From NCBI RefSeq assembly GCF_003788635.1, contig NZ_AYKH01000023.1, forward strand, positions 1 to 64,000: DNA of 64,000 nt, given 5' to 3'. Source of the DNA: Salinisphaera orenii subsp. orenii MK-B5 (GTDB taxonomy: Bacteria > Pseudomonadota > Gammaproteobacteria > Nevskiales > Salinisphaeraceae). The position numbers and the translations under genes were made by a program. Below are positions 6,537-64,000 of this stretch, piece by piece. Under the pieces are notes generated by a model, which saw only the letters and a list, made by a program, of their open reading frames with translations, was not told where the DNA came from and did no database searches. Each line of letters begins with the position of its first letter. Within the stretch, counting starts at the first letter, position 1.

Positions 6537-7098
6537 TCATCTTCAAGCGAATCGCCATACTCCTGGCGCTGCTGGCACTGGCCGGCTGCGCGAATCTGCA
6601 ACGGACCGATTTTCCGCCGCCGGAGGGGCCGGCCGGGCCGGCACCGCCCGAGCCGCCGAACAAGCCGGACCGCGAACCGGAACCGGATCGCCAGCCGCCG
6701 AGTCCGCCCCAGCAGCCGCCGGCCGAGATGCCGCCGCGCAGCGCCCAGGAGGCCAGCAGCCCGGCCGTGCTTTCGCTGCTCGGCCGGGCGGAGACGCTGG
6801 CCCGGGGCGGCCACATGGAGATGGCGGCCGCCACGCTCGAGCGGGCGCTGGACCTGGAGCCGCGCAACCCATTCATCTACCAGCGTCTGGCCAGCGTGCG
6901 TCTGGCTCAGGATCAGGCCGGCCAGGCCGAGGCGATGGCGCGCAAGTCCAACAGCGTCGCCGGTAACAATCCGTTCGTGCGCGCCGACAACTGGCGCCTG
7001 ATCGCCGAGGCCCGCCAGAGCACGGGCGATGGCGGCGGCGCGCGCGACGCACGCGCACGCGCCGACGAGTACCGCAGCGCCAGTCAGCAGTTGGGTCG

Positions 7099-9707: not shown

Positions 9708-10232
9708 ATGCTGTATCGACTCGACGATCGGGTGCCCGTCACGCCCGAAGCCGGCGCCTTCTTCGTCGCCGACAACGCCACCGTGCTCGGCCGTGTCCGG
9801 CTGGCGCACGAGGCCAGCGTCTGGTTCAACGCGGTCCTGCGCGGTGACAACGAGGAGATCGTCGTCGGCGAGGGCAGCAACGTGCAGGATGCCAGCGTGC
9901 TGCATACCGATCCCGGCTACCCGCTGCATATCGGCGCGGGGGTCACGGTGGGCCACCAGGCGATGCTCCACGGCTGCACGATCGGCGACAACAGCCTCGT
10001 CGGCATCAAGGCGGTGGTGCTCAACGGTGCGACCGTCGGTCGCAACTGCCTGATCGGCGCGGGTGCGCTGGTGCCGGAGGGTAAGACGATCCCCGATAAC
10101 AGCATGGTCATCGGCGTACCCGGGCGCGTCAAACGCGAGCTCGAAGCCGCGGAGATCGACAGACTGCGCCAGGGGGCGGAACGTTACGTGGCAAACTTCA
10201 AGCGTTATCTGAAGTCGTTCGAGGCGCTGTAG
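9708..10232 (+). CDS. Gamma-carbonic-anhydrase-like hexapeptide-repeat protein (YrdA family)
   Basis: Left-handed beta-helix protein of the gamma-class carbonic anhydrase family. Hexapeptide repeats run from about residue 20 to 140 (for example [26 protein letters not shown]), and three His positions suited to zinc binding are in VLHTDPG and [12 protein letters not shown]-terminal amphipathic helix follows ([20 protein letters not shown]). 174 residues, the usual length for YrdA/CaiE-type proteins. Whether it has carbonic anhydrase activity is not known for YrdA homologues. ATG at 9708 after GGGAGAGGTC; nine bases separate it from tsaB. Confidence 0.9.
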
Positions 10233-10978
10233 TGATCTCGATTCGGTATGAGATAGACATCGTAACGCACGGATTTGGAACCGAATGAGAGATCCGCGGG
10301 CGCCAGTGGCTCGGCGCGGGCGTGCTGCTTGATCACGCAACGCCGCCCGGCCACGACTCGCGCCGCGGCAAGCAGGTGGGCGGCGTCGGTGTCGGCGCCG
10401 AGCAAGCGGTGGAGCCAGTCCAGCGCCTTCTGGGGCCGCGCCTTGCGCCGCGGCGCCTCGAACATGGGATCGATGTAGACGACGTCGAACGCGCCCGGAT
10501 CGACGCGGGCGAGCCAGGCCGTGGCGTCGGCGTGCACGAGCGTCGGCCAGTGTGCCAGCCAGGCCGGCGGGTCGATCGCGGCACGGCGACGTGCGTCCTC
10601 GAGTAGCGCGTAGAGCAGGGGGCTGCGCTCCAGCGCGCTCACGCGACAGCCGATCGCGGCCAGCGTGGCGCTGTCGCGGCCCAGGCCGCAGGTGGCGTCG
10701 AGCACCCGCTGTCCGGGGCGGCGCTGGAGGCCGATGGCACGGGCGAGCGGCGAGCGGCGTCCGCCCGCGGCGCGTCTTTCGACCTCGCCGTCGCACAGGT
10801 CCAGCCGCAGGCCGCGGTCGCGGCGCGCGGCATCGGCGTTGCAGAGCGTGAGCCCCGCATCGCGCGACTGCAGATAGAAACCGGTGTCCGGCACGGTCTC
10901 GACCGTCGGAATGGCCAGTGTCCGTGCGCGCGCGCGATCATCGTCGGATTCGGCGAACCACACGACGGCCGCGTTCAT
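10205..10978 (-). CDS. rsmJ: 16S rRNA (guanine1516-N2)-methyltransferase RsmJ
   Basis: S-adenosylmethionine-dependent methyltransferase that modifies G1516 of 16S rRNA. It has motif [15 protein letters not shown] (about 94-107), the acidic [12 protein letters not shown] strand end, and the family catalytic-loop motif [15 protein letters not shown] (about 165-180). 257 residues from the ATG at 10978; an earlier GTG at 11050 would add 24 residues that look unlike the family. The 3' end overlaps the convergent YrdA-like gene by 28 bases. Confidence 0.9.
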
Positions 10979-52328: not shown

Positions 52329-55300
52329 CTATTCGAGCGGTTGTTCGTAGCCTTCCTCGAGTTCCAGAATCGCGTTCTCGATGTGTTCGCGATAGGCGCC
52401 GGGTTCGTGCCAGAGGCCGCGCTGCATGGCTTCGAGCATGCGTTCGGACATGTTGCGCAGCGCATCCGGATTGTGGGCTTCCACGAACGCCCGGTTGTCC
52501 TCGTCGAGGATCAGCGCGTCCGAAACGGCGGCATACTGGTAGTCGGCGACCACCTGCGTGGTGGCGTCGTAGGCGAACAGGTAGTCGACCGTGGCGGCCA
52601 TCTCGAAGGCGCCCTTGTAGCCGTGGCGCTGCATGGCGCCGATCCATTTCGGGTTGGTCACCCGGGTCCGGATCACGCGGTTGATCTCCTCGGTGAGCGT
52701 GCGGATGCGCGGCGCGCCCGGGTTGCTGTGGTCGCCGTGGTAGACGGTCGGCATACGGCCACTGCGGCGGCTGCGGGCGGCGTTGGCCATGCCGCCCTGG
52801 AACTGGTAATAGTCCGCGGAATCGAGGATGTCGTGCTCGCGGTTGTCCTGGTTCTGGATGACCGCCTCGAGCCCTTCGAGGCGGTCGTTGAACGCCTCGA
52901 AGGCCGCCTCGCCGTATTCGCGTTCGCCGTAGGCGTAGCCGCCGCGCTCGACGTAGGCGTCGGCCAGATCGTCGCCGTCACTCCAGTCGCCGGCGTCGAT
53001 CCGCTCGCTCAGGCCTGAGCCGTAGGTGCCGGGCTGCGAGCCGAACACCCGGAAGCTGGCCTGGCGCATGGCGCTGTCGTGGTCGTGGCCCTGCGCCAGA
53101 AGTTCGGCCACCCGCTGCTCGACGTTGGCCCGGATGGTGTTGCCCTCGCCCGGGTCCTCGAACGTGGCCAGCCGGCGGACCGCGGCATCGAACAGCCGGA
53201 TGATGCCGGCGAAGGCATCGCGAAAGAAGCCTGAGACGCGCAGGGTGACGTCCACCCGCGGCCGGCCGAGCTGAAAGGCGGGCACGATCTCGAAGTCCAC
53301 CAGACGATTGGAGCCCGGGGCCCAGACCGGCTTGATGCCCATCAGCGCGAACGCCTGAGCGATGTCGTCGCCGCCGGTGCGCATCGTGGCCGTGCCCCAG
53401 ACCGACAGCCCGATCCGGCGCGGATAGTCGCCCTGCTCCTGCAGATGCCGCGTGATCAGCGCCTCCGCTGATGTCCGACCCAACTCCCAGGCCGTCGTTG
53501 TCGGAATCGCGCGGCTGTCGACGGTGTAGAAGTTGCGGCCGGTGGGCAGCGTGTCCAGGCGTCCGCGGGTGGGCGCCCCGCTCGGCCCCGGCGGGACGAA
53601 ACGCCCGTTCAGCCCGCCGAGTGTGTGCGCGATCTCGTCGGCGACGCCGCGCGTGAGCGCCGGCAGCAGCGTGTCGCGGACATAGTCCAGCAGCGCCGCG
53701 GTCTGCGTGAGGCCCCGCACGGCCGTCATATCGCCGTCGATCACCGCCCGGGCGACGAGATCGACCGCCAGCTGCTCGAGGCGTTCGCGGGTGTGATGAT
53801 CCGTGCGCCAGCCCTGCGACGACAGCGAGGCGAGGATCGCCGGCTTCGGCCCGGCCCAGGCCTGGCCGTCCACCCGGAGCGGGTCGAAGTCGCCAAGCTC
53901 CAGATCGGCCGCGAGGGCGTGCAGCAGACCGCGGTCAGTCGCGCCCTCCCCGCGCGGCATGCGGGTCAGCGAGACCAGAGTCTCGGCCAGCTGCGCCCGA
54001 TCCGGCAGCCGGCCGAGGCAATGCAGGCCGCCCCTGATCTGGGCTTCCTTGAGATCGCAGATATAGGTGTCGAGCCGGGCCAGGATCGCCTCGTCGTCGC
54101 TCGGGTCCTCGGCGATCTCGTCGGCGACGTGGCTGCGCCGGGCGATCTCCAGAATGCGATCGCGCAGATAGGTCTCGCGCCGGCGATCCAGGCCCGCGGC
54201 CTCGAAGTATTCGTCGACCAGGCCTTCCAGCTCGGCCAGCGCGCCGTGGCTTTCCGCGCGCACGATCGGCGGCGTCATGTGGTCGATGATCACGGCCTGG
54301 CTGCGGCGCTTGGCCTGGGCGCCCTCGCCCGGATCGTTGACGATGAACGGATAGAGTTGCGGCATCGGGCCGAGGGCGATGTCCGGCCAGCAGTGTCGTG
54401 ACAGCGCCACGCTCTTGCCCGGCAGCCACTCGAGGTTGCCGTGCTTGCCGACGTGGATCACGGCATCCACCGCATAGACTTCGCGCAGCCAGGCGTAGAA
54501 GGCCAGATAGCCGTGGGGCGGCACCAGATCGGGGTCGTGGTAGTTGGCGGCCAGGTCGATCCCGAAGCCGCGCGCCGGCTGCGGCCCGACGAACACGTTG
54601 CCGAAGCGCAGCCCGGCGATCTGCAGACGCCCGTCCTGATGTTTCGGATCCGCCCGCGGTTCGCCCCAGCGCTCGAGGACCGCGGCCTGACTGGCGGCCG
54701 GCAGGGTCGCGAACCAGTCCTCGTAGACGGCGATGTCCAGACTCTGGTGACTCGGCTTGAACTCGTTGCGCGCGGCATCGTTGGAGACCGCCGCCCGCAG
54801 GTGCTCCATCAGCGCGGTCGGATCGTCGGGCAGCGCGCCGGTGTCGTAGCCGTCCGCGCGCAGCGCGGCCAGCAGCTCCAGCGTCGAGGCCGGCGTGTCC
54901 AGCCCCACGCCGTTGCCGATGCGCCCGTCGGTGCCGGGGTTGTTGGCGAGGATCAGGGCGATGCGCTTGTCGGCGTTCGGCCGCGTCTGCAGACGGGCCC
55001 AACGTCGGGCGAGATCGGCCACGAAAGCGGCACGTTCGGGCATCAGCTCGTGGCGAACGACATCGATCTCGCAGCGTCGGCTACGGTACGCCAGGGTCTT
55101 GAAGGCCACCGCGCGGGTGACGATGCGGCCGTCGAGCTCGGGCAGCACCACGTACATTGCCAGATCGCGCGACCGCAGGCCCGCGTTCTGCTCTGTCCAA
55201 TCCGCTTCGGTGGTGCTGGCCGGGATCAGCTGCAGGACCGGGATGTCGCGGGCGAAGGTGGCGCGACCGGTGCCGGGGTCAGAGGCCGTGGCCGCGTTGG

Positions 55301-56132
55301 TCGCCGCCCGCAGCGCGAAGCCGGTGGTGTTGAGCACGACCGCGGCGTCGGCCGCCTCGATGAACTCGTCGATCGCGGCCAGACAGGCGGGCTCCTTGAG
55401 CGAGGCGACGGCCACCGGCAGCGGGTTCAGCCCCCGGGCCATGAGCACCTCATACAGGGCCTCGAACACCGCGGTGTTGCCGTTCTGCAGATGACTGCGA
55501 TAGAGCACGACGACGGCTACCGGCCGGTCGTGGCCCGCCGGCCAGCGGGCACGCCAGTCCGCGAGCGTGGCCGGCAGCCGCTGGGGATGATGGATCAGTG
55601 CCCGCGCCAGCACTGTCGGCTCGCGCCAGTCGAAGTCCCGGTCGAGACAGGTGGCGGCGACGAAGCGCATCAGCGCCTCGGCGTTGTCCGCCCCGCCCTC
55701 GCGGGTGTAGCGCCACACGCGGTGGGCGGTGTCGTAGTCGACCGTCGAAAGCGCGAAGACCTCGTCGTCGTGGTAGTCCTCGCCGGGAACCACGATCAGC
55801 TGGCGGTCGGAAGCCGCAGTGGCCCAGTCGGTCAACTGCTCGACCCCGTACGGCCAGTAGGCGCGGCCGCCGATCAGCGATACGACCACCACCCGGGCCC
55901 GGTCCAGCGTGCGGTCGCGATACAGATCCAGCGCCGCGGGCTTGGACAGATTGCGCCAGTTCGCCAGACGCAGGCTCGGAAATTCCGCCGGCAGCCGTTC
56001 GGCGGCCTGGGCCAGCATCGCCAGCACGCCGTCGGCCGCGCTCAGGATCACCATGTCGGCCGGCGACTGGTCGAGGTCGATGATGCCCTCGCCGTCGGCG
56101 AAGCCGCCCGGTTGTGCCGCCAGTAGATGCAT
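52329..56132 (-). CDS. cobN: Cobaltochelatase large subunit CobN
   Basis: Inserts Co2+ into hydrogenobyrinic acid a,c-diamide with ATP-dependent helper subunits. 1267 residues of the CobN/BchH/ChlH family, with the signature HVGKHGNLEWLPGKSVAL (about 555-572), the LYPFIVNDPGEGAQAKRR block after it, and GGRAYWPYGVEQL near the N-terminus. ATG at 56132. It is the last gene of the riboswitch-led minus arm; its chelatase partner here is the fused ChlID protein at 58643-60343, not CobS/CobT. Confidence 0.96.
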   Translation of the reverse strand: MHLLAAQPGGFADGEGIIDLDQSPADMVILSAADGVLAMLAQAAERLPAEFPSLRLANWRNLSKPAALDLYRDRTLDRARVVVVSLIGGRAYWPYGVEQLTDWATAASDRQLIVVPGEDYHDDEVFALSTVDYDTAHRVWRYTREGGADNAEALMRFVAATCLDRDFDWREPTVLARALIHHPQRLPATLADWRARWPAGHDRPVAVVVLYRSHLQNGNTAVFEALYEVLMARGLNPLPVAVASLKEPACLAAIDEFIEAADAAVVLNTTGFALRAATNAATASDPGTGRATFARDIPVLQLIPASTTEADWTEQNAGLRSRDLAMYVVLPELDGRIVTRAVAFKTLAYRSRRCEIDVVRHELMPERAAFVADLARRWARLQTRPNADKRIALILANNPGTDGRIGNGVGLDTPASTLELLAALRADGYDTGALPDDPTALMEHLRAAVSNDAARNEFKPSHQSLDIAVYEDWFATLPAASQAAVLERWGEPRADPKHQDGRLQIAGLRFGNVFVGPQPARGFGIDLAANYHDPDLVPPHGYLAFYAWLREVYAVDAVIHVGKHGNLEWLPGKSVALSRHCWPDIALGPMPQLYPFIVNDPGEGAQAKRRSQAVIIDHMTPPIVRAESHGALAELEGLVDEYFEAAGLDRRRETYLRDRILEIARRSHVADEIAEDPSDDEAILARLDTYICDLKEAQIRGGLHCLGRLPDRAQLAETLVSLTRMPRGEGATDRGLLHALAADLELGDFDPLRVDGQAWAGPKPAILASLSSQGWRTDHHTRERLEQLAVDLVARAVIDGDMTAVRGLTQTAALLDYVRDTLLPALTRGVADEIAHTLGGLNGRFVPPGPSGAPTRGRLDTLPTGRNFYTVDSRAIPTTTAWELGRTSAEALITRHLQEQGDYPRRIGLSVWGTATMRTGGDDIAQAFALMGIKPVWAPGSNRLVDFEIVPAFQLGRPRVDVTLRVSGFFRDAFAGIIRLFDAAVRRLATFEDPGEGNTIRANVEQRVAELLAQGHDHDSAMRQASFRVFGSQPGTYGSGLSERIDAGDWSDGDDLADAYVERGGYAYGEREYGEAAFEAFNDRLEGLEAVIQNQDNREHDILDSADYYQFQGGMANAARSRRSGRMPTVYHGDHSNPGAPRIRTLTEEINRVIRTRVTNPKWIGAMQRHGYKGAFEMAATVDYLFAYDATTQVVADYQYAAVSDALILDEDNRAFVEAHNPDALRNMSERMLEAMQRGLWHEPGAYREHIENAILELEEGYEQPLE

Positions 56133-56175: not shown

Positions 56176-57258
56176 TCAGTCGGCGTCGGCGGTGGCCACC
56201 TCGGCCTCGCCCAGCACCGCGCGGATGCGGTCCCGGTCAAGATCGTGGCCGATGAACACCAGCCGCGTCTCGCGGCGCTCCTCGGCCGCCCACAGGCGAT
56301 CGAAGTAATGGGCGACGCGCTCGCCCACCGCCTGGACGACCTGGCGCATCGGCTTGTCGCCTACCGCCGCGAAGCCCTTGGCGCGGTAGATCGTCTGTTC
56401 CGCGATGAGCTGCTGCATGCCCGCTAGCAGGCGCTCGCTGTCGACCGGCCCGAGTGCGATCACGGTCGAATCGAAGTGGTCATGGGCGTGCTCGTGCGCC
56501 TCGCCGGCGGCGTGGTGGGCGTCGTGGTGGGTCTGGAGCGCCTCGATGCGATCCTCGGTCGCCGAGTCCAGCCCCGTCAGCAACTCCGGATCGGCGGCGC
56601 CGTTGTCCACGAACAGCGTCTTCACCCGCGCCGGCAGCCGCGACCGCAGCCACTCGTCGACCGCGTCGCGATCGGCCGCGCTCAGCCGGTCGGCCTTGCT
56701 CACGATCGCCAGATCCGCGGCGGCGAGCTGATCGTCGAGCAGTTCCTCCAGCGTGGGGTCGTGATCCAGGGCATCGTCGGCGAGCCGGGCGGCGTCCACG
56801 CGCTCCGGCTCGTGCGCCCAGGTGCCGGCCGCGATCGCCGGGCCGTCGAGCACGGCGATGACCGAGTCGACCGTGCAGTGCTGCTTGATCTCGGGCCAGT
56901 TGAAGGCCTGGACCAGCGGCTTGGGCAGCGCCAGACCGGAGGTTTCGATGACGATGTGGTCGATCGTATCGCGCTTTTCGATGAGCTTTTTCATCACCGG
57001 CACGAACTCCTCCTCGACCGTGCAGCAGATGCAGCCGTTGGCGAGTTCGAAGATGCCGTCTTCGCCCTCACCCTCGTCGTCACAGGCCAGCGGACAGCCG
57101 CGCAGCAGCTCGGCGTCGATATCCATTTCGCCGAACTCGTTGACGATCACGGCGATGCGCTTGTCCTGCGCGTTGCGGATCAGGTTCGACAGCAGCGTGG
57201 TCTTGCCGCTGCCGAGAAAACCGGTGACGACCGTGGCGTGGATCTTGTCGAGTTGCAT
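56176..57258 (-). CDS. cobW: CobW GTPase metallochaperone
   Basis: G3E-family GTPase that delivers a metal ion, Co2+ for cobalamin synthesis in this context. GFLGSGKTT P-loop (about 13-21), metal-binding CICC motif (about 75-78), SKAD guanine-specificity motif (about 190-193), and a His-rich stretch (HHDAHHAAGEAHEHAHDH, about 245-262) before the C-terminal domain. 360 residues. Lies 43 bases before cobN and 29 bases after cobB, in one transcript. Confidence 0.95.
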   Translation of the reverse strand: MQLDKIHATVVTGFLGSGKTTLLSNLIRNAQDKRIAVIVNEFGEMDIDAELLRGCPLACDDEGEGEDGIFELANGCICCTVEEEFVPVMKKLIEKRDTIDHIVIETSGLALPKPLVQAFNWPEIKQHCTVDSVIAVLDGPAIAAGTWAHEPERVDAARLADDALDHDPTLEELLDDQLAAADLAIVSKADRLSAADRDAVDEWLRSRLPARVKTLFVDNGAADPELLTGLDSATEDRIEALQTHHDAHHAAGEAHEHAHDHFDSTVIALGPVDSERLLAGMQQLIAEQTIYRAKGFAAVGDKPMRQVVQAVGERVAHYFDRLWAAEERRETRLVFIGHDLDRDRIRAVLGEAEVATADAD

Positions 57259-57287: not shown

Positions 57288-58646
57288 TCAGGAGACGGCG
57301 GTCGTGGCGGTCTGCGCGCCGGCGGTCGATGACCGCGCGGCGCCGCCGACCAGGGCCGCCGTGGCCGCCGGATTCGAGGCGAAGAACAGATGCAGATAGG
57401 TCGCGGTGAGGCCGCGATCGCGCACGATCGCTTCACCGGGCGCGGGATGCCGCGGCCGACGCCCGTGCGCGATCGGCACCGCGCCGTCGTCAGTGGCCGA
57501 ACGATGGTGGGCGTGACCGCGGATCTCGCCCTCGGGCAGTGGCGCGGTCTGCATGCCCTGGCAGCCGCCCTTCGCGCGCATGCGCCCGGCGCCGGGAATC
57601 AGACCGACCATCCGATGCGTCGGCCCGTCCAGCTCGGTGAGGCTGTCCTGCAGATAAAGCATGCCGCCGCATTCGGCGAGCATCGGCCGGCCCGAGCGAT
57701 GAAACGCCTGCAGCGCGGCGTGCATCGCGGTGTTGGCGGCCAGATCGGCCGCGTGCAGCTCGGGATAGCCCCCGGGCAGCCAGAGCGCGTCCACGTCCGG
57801 CAGCGCGGTGTCGTCAAGTGGCGAGAAATACCGCAGTTCCGCACCCATGCTTTCCAGTAGCCGCTCGTTGGCGGCATAGGCGAAGCTGAATGCGGCGTCC
57901 CGGGCGACGCCGATGCGGTGGCCCGCGAGCCACGGCCCGGGCACGGCCGCCGGCTTTCGGGTGAAAGCGACCGGAAGCGGAGCGTCCGGCAGCGATGTTC
58001 TTTCGATGCGCTCGGCCGCGGCGTCGAGGGCCGCCTCCAGAGACGCCCCCTGCTCCTGCGCCTGGACCAGGCCGAGATGCCGATGCGGCAGGGCCACCGC
58101 CTCGTCCCGGGCCAGGCAGGCCAGCAGCGGCAGGTCCGCGGGCAGCGCCTCGGCGATCAGGTCGGCATGGCGCGCGCTGCCGACACCGTTGGCCACCAGG
58201 CCGGCGACCGCCAGTTCCTCGCGGGCGTGCTGCAGTCCGGCGGCCACGGCGGCCGCGGTCTGGGCCATGCCCCGGCAGTCCAGCACCAGAGCCACGGGCA
58301 GACCGAATTCGGCGGCGAAGTCCGCGCTTGACGGCTGGCCGTCGTGAAGGCCCATGGTGCCCTCGACCAGAATAAGATCGGCCGCTCCCGCGGCCTCGAA
58401 CAGGCGCTGGCCGCAGTAGTCGGCGCCGGCCATCCACAGATCGAGTGGCTCGACCGCACTCCCGGCTGCCGCGGCCAGAATCTGAGGATCGAGATAATCC
58501 GGCCCCGCCTTGAATACCGCCACGCGCCGGCCGCCACGGCGGGCGGCACGTGCCAGCGCGGCCGTCACCGTGGTCTTGCCCTGCCCCGAGGCGGCCGCGC
58601 CGATAAGCAGCGCCGGACAGGCGCGTGTCTCGGTTTCGCGGCTCAT
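57288..58646 (-). CDS. cobB: Hydrogenobyrinic/cobyrinic acid a,c-diamide synthase CobB
   Basis: Glutamine-dependent amidation of the a and c carboxylates of the corrin ring. N-terminal P-loop synthetase domain (SGQGKTTVTAALARAARR, about 20-37; FKAGPDYLDPQIL) and C-terminal class I glutaminase with catalytic Cys in LAECGGMLYLQDSL (about 328-341) and His in TATYLHLFFASNP. 452 residues. ATG at 58646 overlaps the chlID stop by 4 bases (ATGA). Not the sirtuin also called CobB, which is the gene at 17019-17789 here. Confidence 0.94.
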   Translation of the reverse strand: MSRETETRACPALLIGAAASGQGKTTVTAALARAARRGGRRVAVFKAGPDYLDPQILAAAAGSAVEPLDLWMAGADYCGQRLFEAAGAADLILVEGTMGLHDGQPSSADFAAEFGLPVALVLDCRGMAQTAAAVAAGLQHAREELAVAGLVANGVGSARHADLIAEALPADLPLLACLARDEAVALPHRHLGLVQAQEQGASLEAALDAAAERIERTSLPDAPLPVAFTRKPAAVPGPWLAGHRIGVARDAAFSFAYAANERLLESMGAELRYFSPLDDTALPDVDALWLPGGYPELHAADLAANTAMHAALQAFHRSGRPMLAECGGMLYLQDSLTELDGPTHRMVGLIPGAGRMRAKGGCQGMQTAPLPEGEIRGHAHHRSATDDGAVPIAHGRRPRHPAPGEAIVRDRGLTATYLHLFFASNPAATAALVGGAARSSTAGAQTATTAVS

Positions 58647-60343
58647 GACGATACCGCCAGTGCCCGGGGGCTGGCGATGTAACCGCCGCCGAGTCGATTC
58701 GCCAGTCGGCGGGCGCGGCCGAGCGGCACGCGGGCGCGCTCGGTGTCGACCACGGCCAGCGCGCCGGGCCAGCACAGCTCCGGGATGTCGTCGCGACAGC
58801 GGCCGTCGGTGAACAGCAGCGTGCGCGTGCGCAGCCCGGGTTCCCGGCGTACCAGCCGTCGCAGCCGCTCTTCGGCGATGCGCAGCGCGGCGCGCAGCGG
58901 CGTGCCGCCGCCGGCGGGCCAGTCGGCGAGCGCGCGCTCGCACTGTTTCGGCGCCCTTTTAGGGGCGATCAGCCAGTCGATCCGGTCGCCGCCGAAGGCC
59001 AGTATCGCCAGCCGTTCGCGGGCGCGCCAGGCGTGCCGGGCGATGCCGGCGACCGCCGACCGGGCCTCGTCCTGGGCCGCCTGCCCCAGGGTCGAGGCCG
59101 AGGTGTCGAGGAGAATGCAGTTCAGTGTGGCCGGCCGGGTGCTGGCCGGACGGTGCACGAGCCGGCGCGGACGCCGATGCGCGGTGCGCGCCGCATCGCC
59201 CAGGGTGCGGAACCAGTCGACGCGCCGCCCGGCCGGGCCTGCGAGCGACGCGCCGCCGCGCGGGTCGCGTCCGGGCCCCGCGCCTCGCCCGGCGACGGCG
59301 GTCTGCGCGGCTCGACCGACCGGGTCGGCGTTCGGCAGTGCCGCGGGATCGGTCGTGACGGCGCGCTGCGGCGCGATTCGTCGGGGCGGCAGTCCGCCCC
59401 AGGTATCGCCCTGGCCGCTATCGGCCCGCTCGCTCGACCCCTCGGCCCCGCCCTGCCCGCCGGCGGCGCCACCGGAGCCCTCGCTGTCGTCGACGTTCCG
59501 CCGATGACAGAGCACGAACTCGGCGACCGCTTCGACGTCTTCCGCGGTCACGTGCTCGCGTGCCTGCCAGGCGGCGTGGGCGACGGCGGCCTGGCGCCAG
59601 TGGATGTCCGCGCGAACGCCCTCGACACCCGCGGCCAGGCAGCGCTCGGCGATCGCGTTCTTGATCTCGTCGTTACAGTCGATCTGCGGGAGCCGGGCGC
59701 GGGCGGCCTCGAGGCGTTCGGCGAGCGCGGCCTGGGCCGGGGCGTGCTCGGCGGCGAAGTCCTCGGGGTCGCGCGTGTAGGCCAGTCGCTGATCCACGAT
59801 CCGACGACGCGTTTCGGCGTCGTAATCGGTATCGAGCACCACGCACAGCCCGAACCGGTCCGCGAACTGGGGCCGCAGGTCGCCCTCGTCCGGATTCATC
59901 GTGCCCATGAGCACGAATTCCGCGGCGTGCTCGTGGCTGATGCCGTCGCGCTCGATGCGATTGACCCCGGAGGCGGCCACGTCCAGCAGTACGTCCACCA
60001 GCGCATCGGCGAGCAGATTGACTTCGTCGATGTACAGATAGCCGCCATGGGCGCGGCCGATGACGCCGGGCTGGTGGGCGACTTCGCCGGTGCCCAGCGC
60101 GCGTTCCAGATCGAGCGTGCCGACGACCTGTTCTTCGGTCGCCCCCAGCGGCAGCGTCACGAAACGACCGTCGGCCCGCCGATCGATCGCGGCCAGCGCC
60201 CGGGCCAGCGTCGATTTAGCCGAGCCGCGCGGGCCGGAGATGAGCACCCCGGCCAGGCCCGGCTCGATCGCGGCAAGCAGCAGCGCGGTCTTCAGCCGCT
60301 CTTGGCCGACGACCGCCGCGAAGGGGAAATCAGCCCGCGGCAT
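58643..60343 (-). CDS. Fused ChlI-ChlD-type AAA+/VWA chelatase subunit
   Basis: Motor subunit for metal insertion with CobN. The N-terminal AAA+ ATPase (about 10-340) has Walker A GPRGSAKST (about 37-45) and Walker B GYLYIDEVNLL (about 100-110). A Gly/Ser/Pro-rich linker (about 285-370) leads to a VWA domain with the MIDAS residues DTSAS and FTDGR. The fusion of I- and D-type subunits replaces CobS and CobT in Pseudomonas-like pathways. 566 residues; it overlaps cbtA by 14 bases. Confidence 0.92.
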   Translation of the reverse strand: MPRADFPFAAVVGQERLKTALLLAAIEPGLAGVLISGPRGSAKSTLARALAAIDRRADGRFVTLPLGATEEQVVGTLDLERALGTGEVAHQPGVIGRAHGGYLYIDEVNLLADALVDVLLDVAASGVNRIERDGISHEHAAEFVLMGTMNPDEGDLRPQFADRFGLCVVLDTDYDAETRRRIVDQRLAYTRDPEDFAAEHAPAQAALAERLEAARARLPQIDCNDEIKNAIAERCLAAGVEGVRADIHWRQAAVAHAAWQAREHVTAEDVEAVAEFVLCHRRNVDDSEGSGGAAGGQGGAEGSSERADSGQGDTWGGLPPRRIAPQRAVTTDPAALPNADPVGRAAQTAVAGRGAGPGRDPRGGASLAGPAGRRVDWFRTLGDAARTAHRRPRRLVHRPASTRPATLNCILLDTSASTLGQAAQDEARSAVAGIARHAWRARERLAILAFGGDRIDWLIAPKRAPKQCERALADWPAGGGTPLRAALRIAEERLRRLVRREPGLRTRTLLFTDGRCRDDIPELCWPGALAVVDTERARVPLGRARRLANRLGGGYIASPRALAVSS

Positions 60344-61100
60344 GCGCCCCGCCGATCACGTCGCGATCGAGCACCCAGCGTTGCATCGCCCAGCCGCAGG
60401 CCACGCCCAGCACCAGCCAGAACACGGCATTGGTCAGCCCGGCGGCCCAGACGAACTGGCCGTGAATCGTCTCCAGCGCGGCCGCGGTGGCGGCGTCGTG
60501 GCCGCCATAGGGCGAAGCGGGCATCTCCGGTGCGCCGAACAGATAGGGCAACGGCAGCAGCACGAGCGCCGGCAGCTTCCGCCAGCCCGGCGCGAAGACG
60601 GCGATGGCCAGGGCCGCCGCGGTCACCGCGGCCGTGAACAGCCACCAGAGCTGGCGCTCGGTCAGGCCGGCCGAGGCCGCGCCGGGCACCTCGGGCGGCA
60701 GCCCCAGCGAGGGCGCGACGAACACCACGGCGAAGCCGGCCAGCCCCCAGGCCGCGCCGGTGGCGGCGTTCACCGGTGCGCCGCGGCCGCGGGCGGCGAT
60801 ATACATGGCCACCATCAGCAACAGGCTGAAGCCGATGGCCACGCCCATGTTGGTGACGATCGTGAAGCCGATGCGCTGGGCGCCGTCGGCGGGCGCCCAG
60901 GCCGTGCCGTCACCGTGATGGCCGTGGCCAGCCTCGGCGCTGTGTTCGTGTTCGTGGCCATGGGCGTGCCCGTGGCCCTCGGCCTGGTGTTCGGCCGCGG
61001 CGATCAGCGGCGCGGTGGAGAACTGCTCGCCGAGACCGAGCAGCGCGCCCACGAGGGCGCCCACCAGCACGGCGCTGAGAATCAAGCGTCGAAAGAGCAT
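60330..61100 (-). CDS. cbtA: CbtA-family predicted cobalt transporter subunit
   Basis: About five transmembrane helices, first at LILSAVLVGALVGALLGLGEQ. A His-rich loop (about 42-65, 10 His in HGHAHGHEHEHSAEAGHGHHG) follows helix 1, probably periplasmic, suited to metal capture. CbtA is a known B12-riboswitch-linked cobalt transporter candidate that acts with CbtB. ATG 61100 has GGGA upstream; ATG 61118 would add six residues. 256 residues. Confidence 0.9.
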   Translation of the reverse strand: MLFRRLILSAVLVGALVGALLGLGEQFSTAPLIAAAEHQAEGHGHAHGHEHEHSAEAGHGHHGDGTAWAPADGAQRIGFTIVTNMGVAIGFSLLLMVAMYIAARGRGAPVNAATGAAWGLAGFAVVFVAPSLGLPPEVPGAASAGLTERQLWWLFTAAVTAAALAIAVFAPGWRKLPALVLLPLPYLFGAPEMPASPYGGHDAATAAALETIHGQFVWAAGLTNAVFWLVLGVACGWAMQRWVLDRDVIGGAHAAG

Positions 61101-61210
61101 CGCGTATCCCGTTGGCATGCACCGGAACGCCGCGGGTCGGCGGCCGGCGCGAATGATTCGGATGACTGGCAGCGCGCGCGGCGGGGCCGCGACGCGGGCG
61201 GGTCATCGGA

Positions 61211-61405
61211 TCAGTGGCAGGGGAAGGTCGCGGAGTGCCGGGTGTCGTGCGCCGCGTTGTGCACCGGCATCAGGTGCGAGAAGCCGACGCCGTAGACGAC
61301 GAACGCGCCGATGAGCGCCGCGCCGGCGAGCTGAACGATCTCACTGGAAATGGCCGTCGGCCGCGTCTGCGCGCTCCGGGCCGGATTCGACTGCTGGTTC
61401 TGCAT
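61211..61405 (-). CDS. cbtB: CbtB-family small cobalt transporter subunit
   Basis: 64 residues with one transmembrane helix (about 26-43) and the conserved His-rich C-terminus HNAAHDTRHSATFPCH, the CbtB signature thought to bind cobalt. First gene after the cobalamin riboswitch. ATG at 61405; a GTG at 61411 adds two residues. A 110-base gap separates it from cbtA. Confidence 0.93.
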   Translation of the reverse strand: MQNQQSNPARSAQTRPTAISSEIVQLAGAALIGAFVVYGVGFSHLMPVHNAAHDTRHSATFPCH

Positions 61406-61451
61406 GTACACACCCGTACGTCATGAGTTGTCGGCGATCGTGTGACCGCGT

Positions 61452-61640
61452 CGAGCCAGGGCCGGTCTCCGGGCTTGCGAGCGGGCGGATGCCCGGGTTC
61501 GCGCCTTCCCGCGCTGTGCGCAGTGGCCGTGTGCGAACCTGAATCGCTTACCGTTGCGGGGGCAGCAGTGGCCTGGTGCCCGTGGGCACGCACCACTTTC
61601 CCGATTATCCTTGTCCTGTCGGATCAAGGCACCCTGTCCG
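61452..61640 (-). ncRNA. Cobalamin (B12) riboswitch controlling the cbtB-cobN operon
   Basis: All conserved blocks occur in order on the minus strand: GGTGCC (61628-61633), ATCGGGAAAGTGGTG (61591-61605), CTGCCCCCGCAACGGTAAGCG (61545-61565), the B12-box core GCCACTGCGCAC (61516-61527), GGGAAGGCGCGAAC (61497-61510) and GCAAGCCCGGAGACCGGCC (61460-61478). Stems around these blocks can pair. It ends about 47 bases before cbtB. When adenosylcobalamin or a related cobamide is plentiful it should lower expression of the whole arm. Confidence 0.93.
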
Positions 61641-61745
61641 AGCGGAGTCTAGGCAGGCGCGCGCCCCCGGTCAAACCGCTGCCCGCGGATGGATCGGTGG
61701 GCATACGGGGTTCGATAACGCCTGTTCACGGTCCAGGGAGGCTCA

Positions 61746-62195
61746 GTGCCGTCGAATTCGTCATACGCTTCGGCACAACGAACACCGCTGTTCGTCGGCA
61801 TCGGTTGTCGACACGGCTGTGGGTCGGACGTGCTTCGACAGCTGCTCGACGAGACCGCGGCGGCGCTTGCCTTCGACATCCGTGATGTCCGGATCATCGC
61901 GAGTATCGTCGACAAGCGCGAGGCGCCGGCGCTGCGCGAGCTGGCCGCAGTCCTGGGCTGCGAACTCTGGTTCGGAACGGCGGCCCAACTCGCGCGTTTC
62001 GATGCGCGGGTGGCACGCCCGTCCGCCGCGGCCCGGGCGCGTTTCGGCGTGGCCAGTGTGGCCGAATGCGCCGCTCTTGCGGCTGCCGCTGCCTGCGGCG
62101 GCGATCGCGCGAAGACGCGGCTCCTCGGACCGCGCCGGGCCAGCGCCCGTGCCACCGTGGCTGTCGCCACCGATGCGCCAGAGGACGTACAGTAA
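61746..62195 (+). CDS. cobE: CobE / CbiG C-terminal-domain protein
   Basis: 149 residues of the CobE/GbiG C-terminal fold: LFVGIGCRHGCGSDVLRQLL (about 15-34), the IASIVDKREAPALRELA block, and GVASVAECAALAAA with the SVAE motif. CobE binds precorrin-type intermediates in the aerobic route; the same fold in CbiG helps acetaldehyde loss. GTG start at 61746 with GGGAGG at 61737-61742. Divergent from the riboswitch arm, 105 bases apart. Confidence 0.9.
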   Translation: MPSNSSYASAQRTPLFVGIGCRHGCGSDVLRQLLDETAAALAFDIRDVRIIASIVDKREAPALRELAAVLGCELWFGTAAQLARFDARVARPSAAARARFGVASVAECAALAAAAACGGDRAKTRLLGPRRASARATVAVATDAPEDVQ

Positions 62196-62221: not shown

Positions 62222-63388
62222 ATGGCGGGTCTGAACATCCAGCTCAACGCGGACGAGCGGCCGGCCGTGATCGGCGGCGGCGATCGTGCCGCGGCACGGC
62301 CGCTGGCGGCGCTCGCCCGCGCCGGGCTGACCGTGCGTCTGTGCTGCGCCAATCCCGAACCGTGGCTGCGTGATCTGATCGAGAGCCGGGCCATCGACTG
62401 GCGCCCACGGCCGGCGACGGCCGCCGACGTGGCCGCCGCGCGACTGGTGATCGCCGCCAGCGCCGAACCGGCATGCGTTCGCGATCTGCGCCGGCTGGCC
62501 ACCGACGCCGGCCGGCTGTTCCACGACGCCGTCACCGGCGGCGGCGATTTCGTCTTCGAACCGCCGGAGTCGACGCCCGCCGCGCGCGACGATCCCTGGC
62601 AGCATGTCCAGGTCTGTCTGGTCGGCGCCGGCCCCGGCGATCCGGGCCTGCTGACGCTGGACGGCGAGCGCGCCCTGCGCGGCGCCGACGTCGTTCTCTA
62701 CGACCGGCTGGTCTCGCCCCGGCTGCTGTCTTGGGCGCCGGCCCACGCGGAGCGTGTGTTCGTCGGCAAGCGCCGAGGTCATCACCATTACCGTCAGCCG
62801 GAGCTGAACCGCCACATGATCGCCCTGGCCCGCGCGGGCCGTCGCGTGCTGCGTCTCAAGGGCGGCGATCCGTTCGTGTTCGGGCGCGGCGGCGAGGAGC
62901 TGGTCGAACTGGCCGCGGCCGGGGTCGCCACCCGTGCGATCCCGGGCATCACCGCCGGTTCCGGCTGTGCGACCTACGCCGACATCCCGCTGACCCATCG
63001 CGATCACGCCGCCGGCTGCGAATTCCTCACCGCCCACGGCCAGGCCGGCGAGATGCGCCACGACTGGGCCGCGCTGGTGCGCAGCCGGCACACGCTGGTG
63101 ATCTACATGGGGGTAATGGCGCTGACCAATCTCTGTCCGGCGCTGGTGGCGCACGGGATGGATCCAGATACGCCGGCCGCCCTCATCGAGCGCGGTACCA
63201 CGCCGGAACAGCGGGTGCTCACGGGGTCCGTGACCAGCCTGCCTGCCACGGCGCGACGCCATACCGTCACCTCGCCGGCCGTGTTGATCGTGGGTTCGGT
63301 CGTGAGTCTGCGCGAGACGGTGCGCGCCGCGCGTCGCGGTCGCCTGCCCGACCCCGCCGTCGACCATCCGCCCGTACCCCGGGCTTGA
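62222..63388 (+). CDS. cobA: Uroporphyrinogen-III C-methyltransferase with eroded CysG N-domain
   Basis: C-terminal SUMT domain (about 130-380) methylates uroporphyrinogen III to precorrin-2: [35 protein letters not shown] and [21 protein letters not shown] are intact. The first 115 residues resemble the Rossmann part of CysG but with [10 protein letters not shown] in place of GGGxVAxRK, and the catalytic Asp region (VVDAP) is lost. The dimerisation domain of CysG is absent. It probably serves only as SUMT for cobalamin. ATG 62222; 388 residues. Confidence 0.9.
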
Positions 63389-63401: not shown

Positions 63402-64000
63402 ATGGCGATCCCCATGCGCGAAGAGACCGCAGAGAACGGCGATCGGCCGCTGCGCACCGGCTGGACCACGGGCGCCACGGCCACGGCCGCGGCGATGGCC
63501 GCCGCCTACCAAGTGCTGGCGGATCGCACGCTGGAACGCGTGCATCTGTCGCTGCCGAAAAATCGCGAAGCGGATCTGGACGTTCACGACTGCCGCCTGA
63601 TCACCCCGGGCGTCTGCGCCGAAGCCGGTCTGATCAAGGACGCCGGCGACGATCCGGACGCCACCCACGGCGCTCGGGTCTGGGTCCGGCTGACCCTGAC
63701 CGAGGCCCCCGGCGTCGTCTTCCGGGCCGGCGCCGGTGTGGGCACGGTGACCCGCGCGGGGCTGGCGCTGGCGATCGGCGAGCCGGCGATCAATCCCGTG
63801 CCGCGGCGCATGATCGACGAGCATCTGGCCCGCGTGGCGGCGGAACTGGGCCACACGGGCGGCTTCGACGTGACGGTCGGCGTCGACGACGGCGAAGCGA
63901 TCGCCCAGCGGACCATGAACGCGCGCCTCGGCATCCTCGGCGGGCTGTCGATCCTCGGCACGACGGGCATCGTGCGGCCGTTTTCCTGTGCCGCCTACAT
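63402..64000 (+). CDS. cbiD: Cobalt-precorrin-5B C1-methyltransferase CbiD (3' end beyond window)
   Basis: Incomplete at the right edge. The visible 199 residues have the CbiD start [18 protein letters not shown] (about 17-34), then [20 protein letters not shown] (about 84-95), [14 protein letters not shown] (about 112-125) and [17 protein letters not shown] near the break. CbiD belongs to the anaerobic pathway in Salmonella, but also occurs in the Pseudomonas pathway with CobN. ATG 63402; ATG 63414 is possible. Fourteen bases after cobA. Confidence 0.93.

Follow-up and report, generated by a model that had tools for sequence, protein, structure and literature searches.

A described system that closely resembles the riboswitch analyzed here is the env8 platform, in which, as stated in part of a review (PMC10907184), the ribosome-binding site lies in the loop of hairpin P13 and a bulge of one or two bases gives B12 dependence. 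Sections of a mutational study (PMC10653944) report a mismatch along with the bulge in the env8 kissing interaction and identify, in another riboswitch, CCG in L5 and CGG in L13 as the working kissing pairs. In the mainly open literature that was searched, no prior account of a cobalamin riboswitch in Salinisphaera was found, and an earlier description is possible. B12 regulation was reportedly covered by a comparative survey in 2003, and the btuB riboswitch of E. coli reportedly acts on the mRNA as well as on translation.

The window, i.e. the entire 64-kb stretch of Salinisphaera DNA that was analyzed, includes a junction of two divergent gene arms. The features of this junction, listed below, most probably amount to a B12 riboswitch that represses translation and, of the two arms, governs only the one for cobalt handling.

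52329-56132, minus: cobN, cobaltochelatase large subunit (TIGR02257, 1519 over 822; start at 56132 likely)
56176-57258, minus: cobW (TIGR02475, 448 over 332.1)
57288-58646, minus: cobB, a,c-diamide synthase (NF002204, 397.7 over 254)
58643-60343, minus: chlID, ChlI/ChlD-type AAA+VWA cobaltochelatase subunit (PF01078, PF17863, PF13519; TIGR02442 431.6, well under the cut-off of 779.45)
60330-61118, minus: cbtA, predicted cobalt transporter subunit (PF09490, 141.6 bits; TIGR02458 170.9, narrowly under the cut-off of 182.9)
61211-61405, minus: cbtB, predicted cobalt transporter subunit (PF09489, 72.5 bits; TIGR02459 over the cut-off; ATG at 61405)
61406-61419, minus: putative P13/L13 hairpin GUAC[GGGUGU]GUAC with the cbtB Shine-Dalgarno sequence in the loop (conserved in 5 of 5 junctions)
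61443-61651, minus: cobalamin riboswitch aptamer, RF00174 (full-length covariance-model match, 100 bits, E 8e-24)
61646-61651, minus: -10 hexamer TAGACT of the minus arm, reaching into the start of the Rfam match (promoter scan)
61669-61674, minus: -35 hexamer TTGACC of the minus arm (promoter scan; identical in 5 of 5 Salinisphaera junctions)
61652-61745, no strand: gap from the aptamer 5' end to the start codon of the plus arm (contains the minus promoter; plus promoter not found)
61746-62195, plus: cobE-like gene, CbiG C-terminal domain, first of the plus arm (PF01890, 94.6 bits; GTG start)
62222-63388, plus: cysG/cobA-like uroporphyrinogen-III methyltransferase (TIGR01469, 282.1 over 185; start ATG at 62222 likely)
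63402-64000, plus: cbiD, C1 methyltransferase, running past the window (L036:3403-4542; PF01888, 296.4 bits; NF000849, 476.2 over 348)

The only match in the window to any of the 4227 Rfam families (cmscan, gathering thresholds) is the cobalamin family RF00174, on the minus strand. The alignment spans model positions 1-189 of 189, and the score is far above the gathering cut-off of 31.5 bits. A sequence-only reading of this DNA, which had recognized all conserved blocks of a B12 riboswitch and proposed a covariance-model scan, is borne out by this match. Its coordinates, 61452-61745, cover most of the aptamer and also take in the intergenic gap as far as the plus-arm GTG. It correctly gave the plus arm a GTG start, which lies at 61746. 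The distance that it stated, 105 bases, depends on the point chosen as the beginning of the aptamer and becomes 94 if the Rfam match is used to set that point. The aptamer would be expected to bind cobalamin. It is very improbable that it is a relic that has lost switching: some pairs of the outer helix are non-standard in the Rfam alignment, but the match is full-length and far over the threshold, 18 of the 59 pairs predicted by RNAalifold for the five Salinisphaera leaders remain paired despite changes on both sides, and the minus-arm promoter and leader hairpin are conserved. In the RNAalifold structure, the 5' end is paired otherwise than in P1 of Rfam.

The aptamer precedes the minus arm only, as had been claimed, and the genes behind it, identified by HMM search as cbtB-cbtA-chlID-cobB-cobW-cobN, are the B12 and cobalt genes that an RF00174 element would be expected to control: cbtBA provides for cobalt uptake, cobN and chlID for cobalt insertion, and cobB for a,c-diamidation. 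Judging from strand and spacing, the genes from cbtB to cobN probably form one operon read as a single transcript. Of the five genomes that have the pathway, two encode a second large subunit of the CobN/magnesium-chelatase type (G001:C5:62298-65390 and G010:C18:42024-45110). Between positions 61380 and 61800, there is one promoter-like site, compared with 0.0 (sd 0.1) in shuffled sequences. This site, TTGACC-16/17-TAGACT, abuts the aptamer in all five Salinisphaera junctions, with a fraction of only 0.00-0.01 of the shuffles scoring as well. Because its -10 hexamer overlaps the start of the Rfam match, transcription of the minus arm should begin about at P1.

Between the aptamer and cbtB, a single element is conserved, GUACGGGUG(A/U)GUAC, which stands directly before the AUG in all five junctions, with one extra base in G010; these five junctions represent four distinct ones, those of G000 and G012 being nearly identical. 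The element forms a hairpin with a 4-bp stem that folds in each of the four distinct leaders. The hairpin is weak, with 186, 186, 119 and 123 of 200 dinucleotide shuffles folding as well in the four leaders, as expected of a hairpin that needs docking, yet its structure is unproven. The chance of finding such an element in a random 45-base leader is 0.0044, a figure that assumes simple base composition and applies to an element defined after it had been seen. In all four leaders, the hairpin loop is the strongest leader partner of aptamer loop L5 (CCCCCG), with four pairs, a bulged U and one further pair (-6.4 kcal/mol), and also the best anti-Shine-Dalgarno partner (-6.4 in G000, -8.4 in the three others). 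Thus, both a ribosome-binding site in the P13 loop, directly before the AUG, and, by duplex energy, bulged complementarity of L13 to L5, as in the env8 type, are found in 4 of 4 leaders, with CCG in L5 and CGG in L13 both present; the bases involved are invariant across the leaders, so that the kissing pair has complementarity and no covariation support. A distant relative, L098, retains the hairpin GUAC[GGGAGA]GUAC after its aptamer with the Shine-Dalgarno sequence located separately, which points to P13 as the identity of the Salinisphaera element. When the pattern GTACGGGTGNGTAC-(0-1)-ATG was searched in 369 genomes of the class, a sample that did not comprise G001, G010 and G012, it occurred in three, G000 and G013 from Salinisphaera and G285, and a reversed-pattern control gave two hits. 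The match in G285 was taken as chance, given these control hits and the lack of an Rfam match in its 3-kb locus.

The leader therefore carries a plausible repressing platform, and the following sequence of events can be proposed. RNA polymerase would start at the TTGACC-TAGACT promoter and transcribe the aptamer first. When B12 is scarce, P13 would stay undocked and its loop, GGGUG(A/U), would be free to act as the Shine-Dalgarno sequence, so that the products of cbtB-cbtA-chlID-cobB-cobW-cobN would be made. With B12 bound, L5 (CCCCCG) would kiss L13 (CGGGUG) and mask the ribosome-binding site, and the uptake of cobalt, its insertion and the diamidation step would all be lowered. Neither the opposite arm nor the neighboring ring genes carry a riboswitch, and they would not answer to B12 via this RNA. 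A scan of 61380-61800 detected no intrinsic terminator between the aptamer and cbtB, and a transcription-terminating cobalamin riboswitch was accordingly rejected; the only terminator-like site in this interval lies upstream of the minus promoter, inside cobE. The same result weighs against a role of B12 mainly at the level of the transcript, through Rho-dependent termination or decay of the mRNA within the leader or the first part of cbtB, whether or not the ribosome site is hidden as well. Such a role would have a parallel in the mRNA effects reported for E. coli btuB, but the conserved hairpin with the Shine-Dalgarno sequence in its loop fits translation control, and we consider this alternative unlikely.

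Translational repression of the minus arm would leave the opposite arm unswitched. The plus arm encodes the CysG/CobA-like first methyltransferase, CbiD as the C1 methyltransferase and the protein of gene 61746-62195, which we take to be CobE; the latter scores under the NCBIfam cut-offs of the CbiG models, and the label is supported by Pfam. The GTG of cobE is preceded by a good ribosome site, AGGGAGG. In the CysG-like protein, the N-terminal NAD-binding domain of the precorrin-2 dehydrogenase type is short, weak and partial (TIGR01470, 31.1 vs 62.3) and the central CysG domain is apparently absent; dehydrogenase activity would oppose the oxygen-dependent B12 route. To the right of the plus arm follow cobM and cobL (minus strand, convergent), cobK (plus) and then cobJ, cobI, cobH and cobG (minus), with bluB divergent from cobG, to the right of the window. 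CobJ, CobH and BluB, as well as CobL through its CbiE and CbiT domains, were identified by HMM search, CobG by Pfam domains of the nitrite/sulphite-reductase type together with its position, whereas CobM, CobI and CobK are identities presumed from the sequence. The placement of cobK on the plus strand (L036:6620-7369) between the minus-strand cobL and cobJ recurs as the same inversion in G001.

A permissive scan of both strands of the 19.9-kb locus L036 detected no second riboswitch at E up to 1, be it on the plus arm, before cobG, or at the cobG-H-I-J, cobK, cobL-M and bluB units. The absence of a second riboswitch from the plus arm, which the sequence-only reading had noted, is thus upheld, and its interpretation of the two arms is partly supported: the arrangement of a cobalt arm behind the riboswitch and a plus arm with none is kept in all five cbiD-bearing genomes. 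The restriction of the unswitched part to early ring methylation was too narrow, given that cobG, H, I, J, K, L and M have no riboswitch either; the ring enzymes found here, and not only the early ones, would be outside riboswitch control.

The split could be without function if the tightly packed divergent promoters coupled the two arms, through overlap, supercoiling or a shared regulator, and made both of them B12-responsive. The distance from the cobE start codon to the opposing -35 hexamer is 34-37 bp in three genomes and 71 bp in the other two, so that, in the former three, a separate cobE promoter must overlap the DNA of the other promoter or of the riboswitch. Furthermore, in none of the five genomes does the best cobE-facing site exceed the chance level (fractions of 0.70, 1.00, 0.99, 0.17 and 0.68 of 200 shuffles are as good). 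However, the riboswitch works after transcription starts, and coupling of the promoters would need another B12-sensing factor bound in the gap, where the minus promoter is the only element conserved across the junctions, and a shared operator was ruled out on this ground. Coupling is, accordingly, an unlikely explanation, and regulation of the cobalt arm only remains the preferred one. Two gaps contain palindromic sequences just upstream of the aptamer, detected by eye and not present in the other genomes, namely, the perfect palindrome GTCTATCGCGATAGAC in G010 and the inverted repeat GGCCTCG-AGC-CGAGGCC in G013 (loci L050 and L052).

Within the genus, CbiD is present in 5 of the 14 genomes (G000, G001, G010, G012 and G013), which makes the de novo pathway an accessory trait, and CobN in six, the sixth being the 81%-complete G011, with cobN near a contig start. 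All five CbiD-bearing genomes have one riboswitch at the junction of cbtB and the plus arm, and in each the remaining ring genes lie on the far side of cbiD. CobE gave no tblastn match in G013, but the same position there holds the start of an open frame that is about as long. The other nine genomes have one aptamer each, ahead of a btuB homologue.

The cbtB junction contributes one of the three cobalamin aptamers in the genome. The second is found ahead of a btuB cluster (L034). HMM searches identified cobU, cobT and a gene resembling adenosylcobinamide hydrolase in this cluster, which presumably, judging from the sequence, also includes cobO, cobQ, btuC, btuD and cobC. The hydrolase-like gene (L034:5888-6688) resembles the corresponding part of CbiS (67.3 bits vs a cut-off of 250). 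At this second locus, B12 feedback appears to fall on corrinoid uptake and late steps. The third aptamer (L035:9159-9357) precedes a TonB-dependent receptor that matches BtuB models under their cut-offs, and overlaps the predicted ORF of this receptor, whose true start is probably further on.

In Gammaproteobacteria at large, CbtB is encoded in 17 of 274 genomes, with 19 matches, one from the present genome and 18 from others. RF00174 occurs within about 1.5 kb of six of these 18 loci and, when wider cbtB regions of all 16 other genomes were scanned (L097-L112), in 10 of the 16. In seven of these regions, which belong to seven different families (L097, L098, L102, L103, L108, L110 and L111), homologues of cobM, cobH, cbiD, cobL and cobJ are co-directional and downstream of the riboswitch (tblastn, 1e-5); cobM, cobL and cobJ, as members of one superfamily, may cross-match in such a search, whereas cobH and cbiD do not. 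Three more regions (L099 and, from a single genus, L100 and L101) have the riboswitch ahead of cbtBA and no ring genes found nearby. No riboswitch, cobH or cbiD was found in the regions scanned for the remaining six (L104, L105, L106, L107, L109 and L112), those of L104 and L107 ending close upstream of cbtB. Divergent junctions with back-to-back aptamers, one on each arm, were observed in L111 (6091-6302, minus, and 6572-6808, plus) and in G044 (L071; 9897-10166, minus, and 10202-10414, plus), which indicates that each of two divergent arms can have its own aptamer.

From the sequence, we infer ligand binding, repression and non-response of the ring genes to B12, and B12 feedback in Salinisphaera accordingly appears to act on the entry of cobalt, on its insertion and on diamidation, not on ring building. 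It is possible, although we advance this only tentatively, that in Salinisphaera ring building has become independent of B12 feedback, with B12 gating metal entry, diamidation and cobalt insertion, and corrinoid uptake and late steps at the second locus, and with the metal-free ring produced in any case. If so, hydrogenobyrinic acid, on which the riboswitch-gated CobB acts, would accumulate in B12-replete cells, and this store would be ready for fast conversion once B12 falls. The junction is a clean natural split, with the switch on one arm and none on the other, kept in all pathway-bearing members of the genus examined, and makes the site of B12 feedback in the pathway directly testable; the platform itself is natural and compact, with L13, the Shine-Dalgarno sequence and the start codon all within 17 bases.

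Compared with described systems, the switch belongs to a known type, and it is the division of labor between the arms that is unusual. All 189 positions of the Rfam cobalamin aptamer are matched, and the Salinisphaera aptamer differs only in the placement of the genes around it. As in the env8 platform, one short hairpin precedes the start codon, with the Shine-Dalgarno sequence in a loop whose complementarity to L5 includes a one-base bulge; env8 differs in having a mismatch in addition to the bulge, according to the portions of the study cited above (PMC10653944), and the Salinisphaera switch is found in the context of a cobalt-uptake gene. Many btuB riboswitches of the genus share with the cbtB junction the position of the promoter relative to the aptamer, but the Shine-Dalgarno sequence of the G000 btuB leader lies more than 100 bases beyond the aptamer, in contrast to its location in the hairpin directly before the start codon of cbtB, and this leader, folded as one piece, forms a long rod with no clear P13. 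The seven other gammaproteobacterial operons resemble that of Salinisphaera in having RF00174 ahead of cbtBA, directly or through btuB, cobO or cobB. In these operons, the ring genes follow in the same direction behind the riboswitch, which does not prove a single transcript, whereas in Salinisphaera they form separate units without one. Ring genes beside cbtBA are located behind the riboswitch in 7 of 7 sampled regions from outside Salinisphaera, compared with 0 of 5 within it, and Salinisphaera thus departs from the sampled gammaproteobacterial pattern.
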